This document shows, one piece after another, positions 6,430 through 63,992 of a DNA stretch of 64,000 nt. Position 1 is the stretch's first letter. The number at the start of each line of letters is the position of its first letter. The notes beneath the pieces were generated by a model. The model was not told where the DNA came from, searched no databases, and saw only the letters and a list, made by a program, of their open reading frames with translations. The stretch is taken from positions 62,001 to 126,000 of the forward strand of contig NZ_QPJY01000004.1 in NCBI RefSeq assembly GCF_003337735.1. The letters run 5' to 3'. The DNA comes from Thioalbus denitrificans (lineage in GTDB: Bacteria; Pseudomonadota; Gammaproteobacteria; DSM-26407). The translations under genes were made by a program, and so were the position numbers.

Positions 6430-6528
6430 GGACAATGGAAAAGGGATAAGGGACAAGGGACAATGGATAAGGGAAAAAGGTTAAAGATAAACCCTTGACC
6501 TTTGACCTTTGTCCATTAACCCTTATCC
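6430..6528. repeat. Inverted iterated repeat, GACAAGG/GATAAGG family
   Basis: The left arm (6430-6473) carries repeated GGACAATGG, GGGATAAGG and GGACAAGG units. The right arm (6492-6528) carries their complements (CCTTTGACC, TTTGTCC, CCCTTATCC). The core is only about 18 bp. The element fills the gap between the DsrC-like gene and the amidotransferase and ends 8 bp before the ATG, so a folded transcript could mask that start. Confidence 0.75.
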
Positions 6529-10434: not shown

Positions 10435-12267
10435 ATGGGCCGATTCAACCCCATCGCCGCACTGGGCGCCGGCATCCTGGCGCTGCTCACCACCGCCGCC
10501 CCGGCCATCGGGGCTACCGTCAGCCATGGACTGGCGATGCACGGGGACCTCAAGTACGGTCCCGGCTTCACCCACTTCGACTACGCCCGTCCCGAGGCCC
10601 CCAAGGGCGGCGACGTGCGCCTTGCGGCCGTGGGCACCTACGACACCCTCAACCCCTTCACCCTCAAGGGGGTGTCCGCCTCCGGCCTGGGCCGACTCTT
10701 CGATACCCTCACGATCCGGTCCGACGATGAAGCGTTCTCCGAGTACGGACTGCTGGCGGAGACCATCGAAATCCCGGAGGATCGCTCCTGGGTCGCCTAC
10801 ACCCTGCGCCCCGAGGCGCGCTTTCACGACGGTTCCCCGGTCACGCCCGAGGATGTCATCTTCTCCTTCAACACCCTGAAGGAGAAGGGGCACCCCTTCT
10901 ACCGCGCCTACTACGGCAGCGTCGCCAGGGCGGAGAAGGTGGGAGACAGGAAGGTGAAGTTCACCTTCGACGCCGGCGAAAACCGCGAGTTGGCCCTCAT
11001 CATCGGCCAGCTTCCGGTCCTCTCACGGGCCGACTGGGAGGGCAAGGACTTCGCCGCCACCACCCTGAAGGCGCCGCTCGGCAGCGGCCCCTACGAGGTG
11101 GCCGCCTCGGACCCGGGGCGTTCCATCACCTACCGGCGGGTGGCGGACTACTGGGGCGGGGACCTGCCGGTCAACCGCGGACGGGACAACTTCGACACCA
11201 TCCGCGTCGACTACTACCGCGACGCCACCGTGGCGCTGGAGGCCTTCAAGGCCGGCGAGTACGACTTCCGGCTGGAGAACACGGCCAAGAACTGGGCCAC
11301 CGCCTACGATGTTCCTCCCGTGAACGAGGGATTCATCAAGCTGGAGGAGATCCCCAACGAGCAGCCGACCGGAATGCAGGCCTTCGTCTACAATACCCGC
11401 CGCGAGCTGTTCAGCGATCCGCGGGTACGCGAGGCCCTGGCCTACGCCTTCGATTTCGAGTGGACCAACAAGAACCTCTTCTATGGCGCCTACACCCGCA
11501 CCCGCAGCTACTTCTCCAACTCGGAGCTGGCGGCCCGGGGCCTGCCCTCCCCCGGCGAGCTGAAGGTGCTGGAGCCCTACCGCGGCAAGGTGCCCGAGGC
11601 GGTCTTCACCACGGCCTACGAGCCCCCCGCCAGCGACGGCAGCGGCAACATCCGCGGCAACCTGCGCAAGGCCACGGAACTGCTCCGGCAAACCGGCTGG
11701 GAGATCCGCGGACGGCAGCTGGTCGACAGCGCCACCGGCAGGCCCTTCAGCTTCGAGATCCTGCTCGTGAACCCCGCCTTCGAGCGGGTCGTGCTGCCCT
11801 TCGTCCGCAATCTCGAGCGGCTCGGCATCGAGGCACGGGTGCGGACCGTTGACACCACCCAGTACCAGAACCGTCTCAACGACTTCGATTTCGACATGAT
11901 CGTGGATGTCTTCGGCCAGTCCCTCTCCCCGGGCAACGAGCAGCGCGACTTCTGGTCCTGCGAGGCCGCCAGGACCCCGGGCAGCCGCAACACCGCCGGC
12001 GTCTGCGACCCGGTGGTCGACGCACTGGTGGAGAAGGTCATCAGCGCCACGGACCGGCAGGAGCTCATCGATCGCACCCGCGCGCTCGACCGGGTCCTGC
12101 AGTGGGGCTTCTACGTCATCCCCAACTGGCACACCCGCGTCTACCGCGTCGCCTACTGGGACAAGTTCTCCCGCCCCGCGGTGACCCCCAGGTACGACCT
12201 CGGCTTCGGCTTCTGGTGGGTGGACCCCGACAAGGCCGCCGCCCTGACCGCCAAGCGCGGTAAGTGA
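10435..12267 (+). CDS. yejA: Periplasmic substrate-binding protein of a YejA-type peptide ABC importer
   Basis: 610 residues, family 5 solute-binding protein. The start at 10435 is preceded by GGGAGAGGG and begins a clear signal peptide ending near PAIGA. Family features are GLAMHGDLKYGPGFTHFDYARPEAPKGG, RPEARFHDGSPVTPEDVIFSF and the closing YRVAYWDKFSRP block. In E. coli YejA delivers peptides, including microcin C, to the YejBEF transporter. The permease and ATPase genes follow, separated by a 213-bp gap that holds a repeat element. Confidence 0.9.
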   Translation: MGRFNPIAALGAGILALLTTAAPAIGATVSHGLAMHGDLKYGPGFTHFDYARPEAPKGGDVRLAAVGTYDTLNPFTLKGVSASGLGRLFDTLTIRSDDEAFSEYGLLAETIEIPEDRSWVAYTLRPEARFHDGSPVTPEDVIFSFNTLKEKGHPFYRAYYGSVARAEKVGDRKVKFTFDAGENRELALIIGQLPVLSRADWEGKDFAATTLKAPLGSGPYEVAASDPGRSITYRRVADYWGGDLPVNRGRDNFDTIRVDYYRDATVALEAFKAGEYDFRLENTAKNWATAYDVPPVNEGFIKLEEIPNEQPTGMQAFVYNTRRELFSDPRVREALAYAFDFEWTNKNLFYGAYTRTRSYFSNSELAARGLPSPGELKVLEPYRGKVPEAVFTTAYEPPASDGSGNIRGNLRKATELLRQTGWEIRGRQLVDSATGRPFSFEILLVNPAFERVVLPFVRNLERLGIEARVRTVDTTQYQNRLNDFDFDMIVDVFGQSLSPGNEQRDFWSCEAARTPGSRNTAGVCDPVVDALVEKVISATDRQELIDRTRALDRVLQWGFYVIPNWHTRVYRVAYWDKFSRPAVTPRYDLGFGFWWVDPDKAAALTAKRGK

Positions 12268-12273
12268 CTTTCT

Positions 12274-12467
12274 AATAGACAGGATTTACAGGATTCACAG
12301 GATTGCTTGATTATGAGGCACTATCCCTATCGAGACGTCCCATGACACTTCACATGTCACCATCCGCCCCGGGTCGAAAACCATTCGGGGCGGAGTCACC
12401 ACAACCAGTGACATCCTCCAATGGGACCTCTTTGAACATCCTGTTAATCCTGTAAATCCTGTCTATT
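12274..12467. repeat. Inverted iterated repeat, CAGGATTTA family, between yejA and yejB
   Basis: The left arm (12274-12304) has ACAGGATT/TACAGGATT units and the right arm (about 12435-12467) the complementary AATCCTGTA units. The roughly 130-bp core contains its own perfect palindrome, TCCGCCCCG (12363-12371) and CGGGGCGGA (12386-12394). A second element with the same arms but a different core lies at 63794-63992. Confidence 0.8.
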
Positions 12468-12480
12468 CAAAATAACAACC

Positions 12481-16584: not shown

Positions 16585-16780
16585 CTAGTGTACTGCGCCG
16601 CTCTTGGAGGTACTTTCAGAGCCCCCCGAAAGTGCCAGGACAAGGCGCAGTGCGCAGGCAATGGTTGTTCCCTTGCCAAGCGCTGCAACGCCGTCATGGC
16701 ACTTTCGGGGGGCTCCCTGCGGGCGCGCCGCTGGCCGGCGACTCGCTGAATGGGCCTCCAAGAGCGGCGCAGTACACTAG
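16585..16780. mobile_element. MITE-like element with 26-bp perfect inverted ends
   Basis: The ends at 16585-16610 and 16755-16780 are perfect 26-bp inverted repeats. The outermost four bases, CTAG at both ends, could be a 4-bp target duplication, leaving a 22-bp terminal repeat starting TGTACTGCGCCGC. A second perfect 18-bp inverted pair lies inside (16619-16636 and 16698-16715; core CCCCCCGAAAGTGCC). The 196-bp unit has no coding capacity. It sits 19 bp after the yejF stop codon and may act as its terminator. No transposase in the window could mobilise it. Confidence 0.75.
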
Positions 16781-18670: not shown

Positions 18671-18704
18671 GTCTTTCGACTTGAGTGACCCATGACCTGA
18701 CTTG

Positions 18705-18845
18705 CCACAGAGGACACGGAGAACGCGGAGAAGCAGCTGTATGGCACTGTGCCAGGAGCCGGTGACATCCTCCCGAACCGTACCCGCGCAGGGCCATTCC
18801 ACGGAAAATTCCCGGTGACCCCCGCGGCCCCCGTGGCCTCTGTGG
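18705..18845. repeat. Inverted iterated repeat, CACAGAGGACACGGAG family
   Basis: The left arm (18705-18731) has CACAGAGGA, CACGGAGAA and CGCGGAGA units. The right arm (about 18821-18845) has CCGCGGCC, CCCGTGGCC and TCTGTGG. The core is about 90 bp. It fills most of the gap between pbpG and gabD and ends 45 bp before the gabD start. Confidence 0.7.
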
Positions 18846-18889
18846 CAAAGACACTGTCCGTCCTGGACGATGACTTCGAGGAGCTGACC

Positions 18890-29538: not shown

Positions 29539-29562
29539 TCCAGGCTCCGTTGGATGTGAATT

Positions 29563-29823
29563 CACCACGAAGGCACGAAGGGCACGAAGAAAGGACTTTT
29601 TCTACAGATGACACAGATTACGCAGATTGGTTTTCAACAACCGGCCGCTTCTGAGTGCAGCGGCACCGGTGGTCCCGGCCAGGCACCAGCTCAGCTCTCG
29701 CCGACTCTATGGCGACACCGGTTGCAGAACCGCGGCAGAGGCGAAACCGTAAAAAAATCTGCGCAATCTGTGGTTAAACAGGTCTTTTGCTTTTCTTCGT
29801 GCCCTTCGTGCCTTCGTGGTGAA
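29563..29823. repeat. Nested inverted iterated repeat: CACGAAG outer arms, CAGATTA inner arms
   Basis: Outer arms at 29563-29592 and about 29792-29823 carry CACGAAGG units and their complement. Inner arms at 29602-29628 and 29755-29776 carry CAGATTACG-type units and their complement. The unique core is about 126 bp. Short AAAGGACTTT and AGGTCTTTT stretches join inner and outer arms. It fills the gap between lapB and pyrF. The element at 59007-59290 has the same nested order. Confidence 0.8.
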
Positions 29824-29844
29824 TATTGTTTTTTTCCGACTGTA

Positions 29845-36410: not shown

Positions 36411-36426
36411 TGGGGTCTTTTTTATT

Positions 36427-36635
36427 CTCCGCAGATTACGCAGATTGCGCAGATTGCGCAGATTTATTCACGTCGTTTCCCGTGCGGCCACCAGAAACCA
36501 AGGTTGACCTGGACACCCGTGACCGAACATGAACCCCCTCGGAATCACACACTGTTTCGCGACCCCCATCGGGCATACGCAAGACGCTTAAAGACAGCTG
36601 ATCGAATCTGTGTAATCTGCGTAATCTGTGGATAA
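36427..36635. repeat. Inverted iterated repeat, CAGATTA family, between hisC and tyrA
   Basis: The left arm (36427-36466) has four CAGATTACG/CAGATTGCG units. The right arm (36605-36635) has the complementary AATCTGTGT, AATCTGCGT and AATCTGTGG. The core is about 138 bp with no coding signal. GAAGTCTTCTTTT follows the right arm, matching the AAAGACTTT found beside other copies. Confidence 0.8.
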
Positions 36636-36668
36636 GAAGTCTTCTTTTCAGTGTTCGTGCTCACCACA

Positions 36669-45584: not shown

Positions 45585-45768
45585 AGCCGCAGATTTCGCT
45601 GATTGACGCTGATTTCACCTTGCCCCCGGAAGCGCGCATCAGCAGAACCACAGGGCGGCACTGGCTCGCAGACACGCGACACCCAGTCCCCGGGAACCTG
45701 AATCAGGCACCACCCTGACCTTGTGCACAACCCGAATAATCCGCGCAAATCAACGTAATCTGCGGTTA
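45585..45768. repeat. Inverted iterated repeat, CAGATTA family (diverged), between mtnA and maf
   Basis: The left arm (45585-45615) has CCGCAGATTTCG, CTGATTGACG and CTGATTT. The right arm (45735-45768) has AATCCGCG, CAAATCAACG and TAATCTGCGG. The core is about 120 bp. CCAGGTCTTTTCC follows the right arm, as at 29777. It occupies the divergent promoter region of mtnA and maf. Confidence 0.75.
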
Positions 45769-46419: not shown

Positions 46420-46455
46420 AATCCGCCACGCAGACACATTGGAAAGTAAAAGACT

Positions 46456-46638
46456 TTATCCGCAGATTACACAGATTACGCAGATTTATTGGAGCCGATT
46501 CCGTGCTCCCTGCCAGAAATCCCACTCGGTGCAACGGGAGGGTTGTTCGCCGAGAGGTCATCTGTCTCTCCGGGCGATGTGATGCGCCCCAAGATGCCGC
46601 CTGTCAGGAAGAAATAATCTGCGTAATCTGCGGATATA
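46456..46638. repeat. Inverted iterated repeat, CAGATTA family, between maf and sppA
   Basis: The left arm (46456-46490) has CAGATTACA, CAGATTACG and CAGATTTATT. The right arm (46612-46638) has TAATCTGCG, TAATCTGCGG and ATATA. AAAAGACTT precedes the left arm. The core is about 120 bp. It lies between the convergent ends of maf and sppA, so it could serve both as a terminator. Confidence 0.8.
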
Positions 46639-46673
46639 TTTACTCTTTTCCCGTCGCTGCGTGGAGGAGAAGC

Positions 46674-56639: not shown

Positions 56640-58955
56640 TCAGTCCGCATGCCAGTAACGCCGGGCCGTCTCCCGGTGGCGGCGCACCGTCATCCCTCCC
56701 CGCCCCGCCGGCGGCAATGTGAGGAGGATGGCGCCGCTGGCGGCGGTGACCAGCCCGCGGGCGCCTACGGCCTCGTAGCGGGCCACCACCGGCGGACGGG
56801 GGAAGCCGAAGCGGTTGCGGTAGCCGGCGGAGTAGATGGCCAGCCGCGGCCGCACGGCGGCTACGAAGTCCGCCCCGGACGAGGTTTCGCTGCCATGGTG
56901 CGGCACCACGAGGGCATCCGCGGCAATGGCCTCCCGGTGCCGCTCCAGCAGTCGCGCCTCGCCCCGCGCCTCCAGATCGCCGCCCAGCAGCAGGCTGGCA
57001 CCGCCGCTCGCCACCCGCAGCACGCAGGTGGCGGCGTTGTCACGCCACGAGCCGTCGCCCGGCGGATGGAGCATCCTGAACTCCACTCCGTCCCAGCGCC
57101 AGCTCATGCCGTCCCTGCAGGCCTCGGCGCCCGCGACCGTGGCCGCCGCCGCGCCGCCGCCGAGAATCCGGCCGGGCGGATAGGCCCGGATCAGGCTGTC
57201 CGCCCCCCCCACATGGTCGCCGTCGCCGTGGCTCAGGATCAACAGGTCCGGATTGCCGGCGCCGATGGCGCGCAGGTAGGGAACCAGTACCCGCTCGCCC
57301 GCGTCGCTTCCGGGTCCGTAGCCGGGGCCGGTGTCATACACGAGCAGGTGCCCGTGGGTCCGCACCACCACCGCCAGCCCCTGGCCCACGTCGAGCACGG
57401 CCACCTCGGCCGCCCCCGGCGCCGGCGCCTGTCCGGCGGGCCACAGCAGCGGCAGCAGCCACAGCATCCCCAGCCAGCGCCCGGGGATTCCCCGCGGTGC
57501 CAGCAGCAGGAACACGCCCGCGATGGCGAGGAGCACGGCCGCGGGCCCGGGCGCCGGGGCGCTCCACTGGGCCCACTCCAGCCCCGCGCCCCACTCCAGG
57601 CCCGCCCACAGCGGTGACAGCACGGCATGGGCGGCGCCGAGCAGCCAGGCGCCGGTCCCGGGCAGGATCACCAGCAACGCCGTGCCCGCCAGGGTCAGGG
57701 GTACCACCAGCAGTCCCATCCATGGCACCGCCACCAGGTTGGCCAGGGGCCCCACGAGGGAAACCCGCTGGAACAGCAGCAGGGTCAGCGGCGCCAGCGC
57801 CAGGAATACCGCCAGTTGCAGACGGGCGGACTGCAGCCAGCGGGAAGCACCGCCCCGACCCGCCAGGGCGAACAGGATGGCGGCCACGGCGCCGAAGGAG
57901 AGCCAGAACCCTGAATCCAGCACGGCCAGCGGATCCAGGATCAGGATCAGCAGCAGCGCCAGGGCCAATCCCCGCCCGGGCCGCACCGGGCGCATCAGCA
58001 GCCGCGCCCCGAACAGCACCCCCAGCATGACCAGCGCCCGGGTGGTGGGCAGGGAGAACCCGGCCAGCGCGCTGTAGCCGGCCGCCGCCAGCAGCGCGGC
58101 GGCCGCGGCCGCCCGGGGCGCGGCACAGCGGAGGGCGAGGCGCCGGGAGAGACGCCAGCCATGGAACGTCAGCCACCAGGCCAGTCCCGCCACCAGGCCC
58201 ACGTGCAGGCCGGAGATGGCCACCAGGTGGCTGGTGCCGGTGCGGGTGAACACCTCCCACTGGCGGGCACCGATGCCGCCGCGGGCGCCCACCGCCAGCG
58301 CGGCGAGGATGCCGCCCAGGGGCTGTTCCGCCAGCGCCGCCCCGATCCGGTCCAGCAGCCGCTCCCGCCACCCGTCGAGACTGTGGCCGGACGCCTCCAG
58401 GCGGCGGTTTTCAGGGTCCTCGCGGACATAGCCGGTGGCGCCGACACCGCGCCGGTGGAGCCAGGCCTCGTAGTCGAAACCGCCGGGGTTGAGCAGGCCG
58501 TGGGGGCGCTTCAGGCGCACGCGCAGCTGCCAGCGCTCCCCGGATCGCAGCCGCGGGGCGGTGCGGTACCAGGAGAGACGGATGCGTGAAGGGCCGTCGG
58601 CCAGCGCCGGATCGAGCCAGCGCTCCACCGCCAGCACGAAGCGCAGCACCCCGCCCCCATGGTCCGGCAGCCCCTCCACCCGTCCCTCCACCAGGAGGTC
58701 CCTGCCTTCCAGGGCCTCCGGCAGTTGGGATCCGGCGCCCAGGACGGCGTGGAGCAGCGCCCACAGGAAGCCCGCCCCGAACAGCGCCGGCAGACGCCAG
58801 CGCGGCCGGCGCCAGGCCAGCCACGCCAGGACCGGCAGCGCGGCACACCAGCCCCCATGGGGCAGGGCCGGGAGCTGCTGGAGCAGCAGCACGCCCAGCA
58901 AGAAGGCGATCGTCCCTGACGCCAAGTTTCCTCCGCGGGAGCCTCCTGCTCCCAT
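56640..58955 (-). CDS. comEC: DNA internalisation protein ComEC/Rec2
   Basis: 771 residues, the inner-membrane channel for transforming DNA. An N-terminal soluble DUF4131-type region lies between membrane helices. The central Competence domain begins around VFTRTGTSHLVAISGLHVGLVAGL, which is its hallmark. The C-terminal metallo-beta-lactamase-like domain has LSHGDGDHVGGADSL and DALVVPHHGSETS. With comEA at 28467 this is evidence for natural competence; pilus genes are not in the window. Confidence 0.94.
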   Translation of the reverse strand: MGAGGSRGGNLASGTIAFLLGVLLLQQLPALPHGGWCAALPVLAWLAWRRPRWRLPALFGAGFLWALLHAVLGAGSQLPEALEGRDLLVEGRVEGLPDHGGGVLRFVLAVERWLDPALADGPSRIRLSWYRTAPRLRSGERWQLRVRLKRPHGLLNPGGFDYEAWLHRRGVGATGYVREDPENRRLEASGHSLDGWRERLLDRIGAALAEQPLGGILAALAVGARGGIGARQWEVFTRTGTSHLVAISGLHVGLVAGLAWWLTFHGWRLSRRLALRCAAPRAAAAAALLAAAGYSALAGFSLPTTRALVMLGVLFGARLLMRPVRPGRGLALALLLILILDPLAVLDSGFWLSFGAVAAILFALAGRGGASRWLQSARLQLAVFLALAPLTLLLFQRVSLVGPLANLVAVPWMGLLVVPLTLAGTALLVILPGTGAWLLGAAHAVLSPLWAGLEWGAGLEWAQWSAPAPGPAAVLLAIAGVFLLLAPRGIPGRWLGMLWLLPLLWPAGQAPAPGAAEVAVLDVGQGLAVVVRTHGHLLVYDTGPGYGPGSDAGERVLVPYLRAIGAGNPDLLILSHGDGDHVGGADSLIRAYPPGRILGGGAAAATVAGAEACRDGMSWRWDGVEFRMLHPPGDGSWRDNAATCVLRVASGGASLLLGGDLEARGEARLLERHREAIAADALVVPHHGSETSSGADFVAAVRPRLAIYSAGYRNRFGFPRPPVVARYEAVGARGLVTAASGAILLTLPPAGRGGMTVRRHRETARRYWHAD

Positions 58956-59006
58956 GTTTCACGCTCCCGGACCGTCCGGCCGGTGCGGGCCCGTCATCCG
59001 TTCGAT

Positions 59007-59290
59007 TTCACCACGAAGGCACGAAGGACACGAAGAAAGGACTCAAATGAAAAGACTTTTGTTATCCGCAGATTACGCAGATTACACGGATTTTTTCCAG
59101 TCAGACCACCGGGCCGTGTGCGCTTTCAGATGTGCCCATGAGGCATATACCTGGACTGGAATCAGGAGGCATCAGAAGCCTGGTCAGTGGCAGGGCACTG
59201 AAAACAGTGCCATGTAATCTGCGTAATCTGCGTAATCTGCGGATAAAAGCTTTTCGGTGTTCTTCGTGTCCTTCGCGCCTTCGTGGTGAA
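59007..59290. repeat. Nested inverted iterated repeat: CACGAAG outer arms, CAGATTA inner arms
   Basis: Outer arms at 59007-59038 and about 59260-59290. Inner arms at 59062-59093 (CAGATTACG, CAGATTACA units) and 59211-59246 (TAATCTGCG three times). AAAAGACTTT joins left outer and inner arms. The unique core is about 117 bp. It has the same two families in the same nested order as at 29563-29823. The 453-bp gap between comEC and the DUF2062 gene holds nothing else that I recognise. Confidence 0.82.
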
Positions 59291-63793: not shown

Positions 63794-63992
63794 ATAGACA
63801 GGATTTTCAGGATTGGCAGGATTTATTAGTGCCTATCCTGGCCGCGTTGACCCATATCACCGGTGATGCGCGTGGATGGCCACCCCGTTCCATCCAGGTC
63901 GATATCACACCCTGTCAACCCAAACCAAAGCCCTGTACGAACTCGACGGCTCCAGGCCTAATCCAGTAAATCCTGTGAATCCTGTCGATTAA
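63794..63992. repeat. Inverted iterated repeat, CAGGATTTA family
   Basis: The left arm (63794-63825) has ACAGGATTTTC, AGGATTGGC and AGGATTTA. The right arm (about 63965-63992) has GTAAATCCTG, TGAATCCTG and TCGATT. The core is about 140 bp and differs from that of the sister element at 12274-12467. No gene is seen between here and the window end. Confidence 0.8.

Follow-up and report, generated by a model that had tools for sequence, protein, structure and literature searches.

REPINs are gene-less inverted pairs that occupy many intergenic places; a low-copy RAYT gene lying beside the same repeat is believed to move them in trans, and the repeat and the RAYT enzyme are thought to co-evolve (as outlined in PMC3116915). 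The composite palindromes described here (A>B elements, with A arms outside and B arms inside) are likewise gene-less inverted hairpin pairs, but differ from REPINs as outlined there in three features: the gene bracketed by such arms codes for a GxxExxY protein of predicted PD-(D/E)XK type, the arms are made of about 30 nt of tandem 8–9-mers, and the elements are nested. The BrickBuilt MITE of Porphyromonas gingivalis (PMC4596501) is also intergenic and has tandem repeats inside; it carries a 23-nt repeat in its body and small inverted ends, whereas here words of 8–9 nt form the inverted arms, and its abstract mentions no linked gene. Among open-licence papers we found no description of the elements reported here, and they may be described elsewhere. 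The small dispersed and heptamer repeats of Nostoc, an account of which is ascribed to Elhai in 2008, are said to be very small nested mobile repeats, often lying in heptamer arrays, with elements reportedly of 21–27 nt; we know of no link between them and GxxExxY genes.

The window is a stretch of 64,000 nucleotides (G000:C4:62001–126000) of a 4.14-Mb genome (G000) assembled in 21 contigs. At two loci, 29560–29824 (element 1) and 59007–59290 (element 2), inverted CACGAAG arms (A) lie outside and inverted CAGATTA arms (B) inside, and the nested order reported in the initial annotation is real at both. In element 1 the outer left arm, consisting of three CACGAAG words (29560–29592, plus strand), pairs with the outer right arm (29792–29824, minus), the two being 33 nt long and 100% complementary, and the inner left arm CAGATGACACAGATTACGCAGATTG (29605–29629, plus) pairs with the inner right arm (29755–29770, minus) around an unstranded core at 29630–29754. 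Element 2 has outer arms at 59007–59037 (plus) and 59260–59290 (minus), pairing over 31 nt at 97%, inner arms at 59062–59092 (plus) and 59210–59246 (minus), of which 59062–59092 and 59216–59246 pair over 31 nt at 94%, and an unstranded core at 59093–59209 that is unrelated to the core of element 1: the impression that the two cores are unlike was borne out by an all-against-all core comparison, in which they gave no match. Both words are strongly overrepresented in the window, CACGAAG with 27 occurrences against 7.6 expected and CAGATTA with 14 against 1.0, counts reached in none of 100 shuffles, and RNA folding z-scores are –10.7 for the element 1 locus and –16.2 for the element 2 locus.

According to Pfam, the neighbours of element 1 are pyrF and a lapB-like gene whose domains are TPR and LapB rubredoxin, and those of element 2 are a comEC-like and a DUF2062 gene, so neither interrupts a 23S rRNA gene. 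The A>B elements lie between genes and contain no ORF of note. Mechanical ORFs running through the arms (window 58489–59217, plus strand) translate to HEGHEE and ADYADYTD, and strings of this sort may be the source of some hypothetical proteins in databases.

A count of copies and of their order over the whole genome, proposed in the initial annotation, was made on the first 100 exact matches listed for A (contigs C1–C17) and for B (C1–C5), with B places past C5 included only where they lie inside an A locus, so that B outside A is under-sampled. Among the matches listed in G000 there are 62 inverted pairs of A, 73 of B, 17 of C (ACAGGATT arms) and 3 of G (GCCAAG arms), forming at least 42 A>B, at least three A>C, at least two C>B, at least one C>G and at least one B>G nestings, and the orders B>A, C>A and B>C do not occur. 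The nested counts are lower bounds, since visual inspection shows that not all of the 29 seemingly outermost B pairs lie outermost, some being enclosed by degenerate or different arms that the patterns missed; further C>B cases seen by eye are at L069, L078, L089 and other loci. The other four nesting types have few cases. At L082:741–858 the arms are mixed, with A on the left only and B followed by C on the right, as if two composites had recombined. A third layer is seen by eye at L154:1270–1790, where an outer inverted pair (GGCTCGTCAGC...) surrounds a GCCAAG-armed partial GxxExxY gene.

In the all-against-all comparison 42 of the 106 cores have a relative. In nine pairs of related A>B elements the likeness covers the full unit from A to A (identity 0.75–0.92 in the best orientation), while the 100-bp flanks of the same pairs match at 0.40–0.56, compared to a mean of 0.51 and a maximum of 0.60 for random 100-mers. 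As the unit is alike over its full length and the flanks are at random identity, the composite has been copied as one unit with the A arms as its ends, in support of the initial suggestion of a composite that moves as a whole. Both loci are non-autonomous copies of a single mobile element, a composite palindrome with an AAAAG-rich linker. The linkers between A and B arms, left and right, resemble each other across all loci (0.55 compared to 0.47 in shuffled pairs), as expected of one lineage, and the alternative suggestion that the outer family targets the inner one finds no support. With the unit copied and the linkers shared, the fixed order is explained by descent, being inherited in the A>B lineage, and not by A targeting B. 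The argument that two independent chance insertions in one order are improbable loses its premise, because most loci are probably not independent nestings. Arm-against-arm correction was also considered as a candidate and rejected: the left linker of a locus is no closer to its own right linker than to those of other loci (permutation p = 0.94). A counter-example to the unit pattern is the core of element 1, which is 65% alike, in inverted orientation, to the L069 core with C-like outer arms; therefore, outer arms can differ around related cores.

The window contains further elements of the same design, about three words of 8–9-mers in inverted order around a core, with arms of A alone, B alone, C, D (GGATAAGGGACAAGG), E (CCACAGAG), or B-type with CGCTGATT words; none of them is assigned a strand. 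A simple A element without B lies at 2876–2967. B elements are found at 36422–36638 and, with degenerate A-like outer arms (CCACGCAGACAC/CTGCGTGG), at 46420–46673, and a B-type variant (CGCAGATTTCGCTGATTGACGCTGATT) at 45587–45765. C elements occupy 12246–12480, with ACAGGATT arms, and 63794–63989; an E element with CCACAGAGGACACGGAG arms is at 18702–18848, and a D element with GGATAAGGGACAAGG words at 6444–6528. A strict A-to-B pattern, which is exact and recovers just 11 places even in G000, matched solely the two genomes of this genus among 369 genomes of the class.

Beyond what the initial annotation proposed, every arm family is also found around a GxxExxY gene. The A pair at C1:721700–722236 encloses a 123-aa ORF that matches PF13366 with 143.5 bits (cut-off 22) and TIGR04256 (GxxExxY) with 145.6 bits (cut-off 35). 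The five PF13366 matches in G000 lie within A, C, B-type, G (GCCAAG) and nested B-type over G arms, respectively; two of the five are partial genes, 84% alike over 239 nt, of which one is free and the other lies inside B-type arms. At none of these five loci do the ends of an A>B composite surround the gene, and the autonomous partner of the A>B composite itself is unseen.

The association extends over other classes and phyla. The test set comprised 43 loci, 30 of them from the 57 genomes with a match among 299 genomes of the phylum, eight from plasmid matches and five from G000 itself; two lie too close to a contig end, leaving 41. Inverted arms with a score of at least 16 within 300 bp were found at 29 of the 41 loci, compared to none of 286 control intervals from the same DNA and none of 205 shuffles; the remaining 12 loci have no arms at this score. 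The arm-bracketed plasmid cases include Bacteroides finegoldii and Sphingomonas parapaucimobilis. Most of the arm words vary a common theme, approximately C[AG]C[ACG][AG]A[GT], and the word class follows the protein tree: on a tree of 33 proteins (29 labelled) it changes nine times, compared to 18.5 in shuffled labels, with none of 200 shuffles as low, a result to which near-copies contribute. At least three CACGAAG pairs are present in 24 of 57 genomes with GxxExxY and in six of 242 without (p = 1e-14; 299 genomes); the excess comes mostly from one family (f200), inside which the proportions are 23 of 45 and five of 29 (p = 0.004). The arms and the GxxExxY gene are, by this association, one element type, and the hairpins are its gene-less relatives. 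Small nuclease-like genes of many bacteria are flanked by ends that match the outer ends of the hairpins, which suggests selfish DNA of a little-described kind.

In 18 GxxExxY proteins the residues E27, D67, E77 and K79 are invariant, which fits the E ... D ... ExK pattern of PD-(D/E)XK nucleases, and the predicted nuclease identity rests on this pattern and on the Pfam family name. No sequence relative of the GxxExxY protein was found in PDB, and a single-sequence structure model (pLDDT 40) was too poor for a fold search. A defence or phage family was also considered for the protein; PADLOC and PHROGs gave none. A viral contig (L271) has a GxxExxY gene with visible CACAAAG-type arms; the first viral scan yielded no relative. 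In Gemmatirosa (L181:2800–3500), perfect 32-nt arms beside a GxxExxY gene face outward, opposite to the others.

Four-helix-bundle genes of PF05635, a family named after 23S rRNA intervening sequences, form a parallel class. They lie between inverted 7-mer arms (e.g., TAGGCAG, GTGAGGG) with a score of at least 16 at 18 of 29 loci, compared to none of 99 controls (the set includes loci L242–L270, L158 and L159; four of 33 were skipped at contig edges). For the intervening sequence of Coxiella, PMC4990558 describes an inverted end of 28 bp and an S23p ORF with tandem heptamers next to it, and calls the origin of intervening sequences unclear. The likeness to this description (PMC4990558) is in the terminal inverted repeat of about 28 bp, the S23p-type ORF and the heptamers, as the PF05635 genes studied here have inverted heptamer arms; in contrast to the sequences described, A>B elements are intergenic without an ORF of note, and GxxExxY proteins belong to another family. 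A kinship with the PF05635 four-helix bundle links our parallel class to the Avd proteins of diversity-generating retroelements, which according to PMC10053308 have a reverse transcriptase as their partner.

Movement of the elements was studied by comparison with G001, the second species of the genus, whose assembly is fragmentary (87% complete, 510 contigs). The B element at 46420–46673 and the C element at 12246–12480 are absent from the orthologous places of G001, with junctions at these empty places not clean enough to name a target; the C element at 63794–63989 is present, and element 1 has the same core in the same orientation. A further multi-copy palindromic element with GTGTACTGCGCCGCTC ends, at window 16585–16780, has many near-identical copies in G001, which lacks it at 16585 and has one at the place of window 62150, where G000 has none. 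Elements are inverted in place between the species clearly at L114/L052 and at L126/window 2876, the core of the simple A element, and weakly at L096/L051; of the in-place inversions at L114 (against L052/L111) and L126 (against window 2876), one has 98% identity in the inverted sense.

Fourteen A elements lie in the fetched G001 loci, and 13 of them have an orthologue in the fetched G000 loci. Over these 13, the divergence of the element tracks that of the near flank (5–105 bp; rho 0.83, permutation p = 0.0009) and not that of the far flank (205–505 bp; rho –0.15): near flanks of the seven elements diverged by less than 1% differ at 11 of 1400 positions, and those of the six elements at 1% or more, at 65 of 1187. 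In nine loci the flank divergence increases with distance from 0.4% (5–55 bp) through 1.4 and 3.0% to 5.2% (155–205 bp), stays near 5% up to about 800 bp and then rises, and in the remaining four loci it is 9.8% next to the A element; this grouping partly used the near flank, and the rho test regrouped the loci by element identity alone. Over 48.4 kb of alignment, changes number no more than one per 200 positions in ten tracts, of which the four at A elements are the longest, 304–484 bp compared to 200–259 bp. No such tract is seen at the window's C, D and E elements. We read the tracts, a signature observed at 13 loci in comparison with one sister genome, as the product of recent copying of short stretches with A elements at their centre, following breaks at the palindrome. 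Direct repeats (k = 2 to 9) at the ends of the 62 A palindromes show no excess over re-paired flanks, and target duplication was rejected there.

Taken together, the composite unit, the element type made of arms and GxxExxY gene, and a cut-and-copy movement form the explanation we prefer, and as a whole we judge its chance of being right to be about even. Most likely, a palindrome would be cut by the GxxExxY protein in trans, or by it together with host enzymes, and another copy of the locus would supply the element and roughly 100–150 bp of its flank for repair of the break. Such cut-and-copy would leave target sites unduplicated, often invert elements in place and produce short conversion tracts. 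That GxxExxY cuts DNA and acts on these arms is a prediction; copying would follow breaks, and cutting of palindromes with repair fits the data. Hosts cut long palindromes, and host enzymes could also do it here: cleavage, e.g., by SbcCD, could leave the tract signature without GxxExxY. The palindromes would then be recombination hotspots only, with repair producing inversions and tracts, and GxxExxY would have another role, for example in silencing of elements or in defence. Long imperfect palindromes with the folding z-scores given above, and the inversions and tracts themselves, agree with such hotspots; left unexplained are the arm word following the GxxExxY protein tree and the word copy number going with GxxExxY presence, and tracts are missing at the C, D and E palindromes; we regard this explanation as doubtful. 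One could also suppose that these are ordinary MITEs, in which a conventional transposase (DDE or HUH/RAYT), so far undetected, mobilises the composite and the GxxExxY genes are passengers between the arms. The many gene-less hairpin copies with terminal inverted repeats, the unit copying and the presence/absence between species would be expected of MITEs, and the lack of target duplications at 62 A elements counts against them, with the qualification that HUH transposases require none; a further point against them is that, at the loci examined, it is GxxExxY and four-helix-bundle genes that lie between the arms. We find ordinary MITEs rather unlikely.

Two further alternatives concern the hairpins as such and the comparison between species. 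Host regulatory or terminator structures kept by selection would account for very stable folds and for several elements identical between the species, but hardly for presence/absence between them, unrelated cores, paralogues with random flanks or inversion in place, and a search of five of the fetched loci against known RNA families in Rfam gave no match; this is very improbable. An artefact of metagenome assembly, which would affect only the movement step, is suggested by the state of the G001 assembly; still, the number of tandem copies varies between orthologues whose divergence is otherwise near zero (18-nt gaps) and one orthologous element is inverted, so the elements of G000 and G001 are not the same reads, and other families have no tract, which makes the artefact quite unlikely.

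Returning to cut-and-copy movement, a wider proposal can be made tentatively, being possible rather than probable: selfish palindromes without a transposase would form two wide classes, one headed by nuclease-like GxxExxY genes and one by S23/Avd-like four-helix-bundle genes, whose tandem-word arms are the protein's own recognition array and which spread by cutting and short-tract copying, so that elements of one word nest in those of another and travel with them, and 23S rRNA intervening sequences would be members of this class that have landed in rRNA. The placing of rRNA intervening sequences in one class with arm-bracketed genes would make the old question of their origin testable. GxxExxY is an annotated and nearly unstudied family; the link to inverted word arms offers a likely substrate for both GxxExxY and PF05635 proteins, and gives the dispersed repeats of many genomes a home.

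Single observations were made in more distant genomes. A plasmid of Anabaena cylindrica has a single A-like arm between efflux genes (L177:2001–2031, 97% over 31 nt). In another genome, four CCACGAAGGCACGAAG copies follow each other with a spacing of about 165 bases (G425:C34:4007–4520), perhaps as a tandem array of a whole element.
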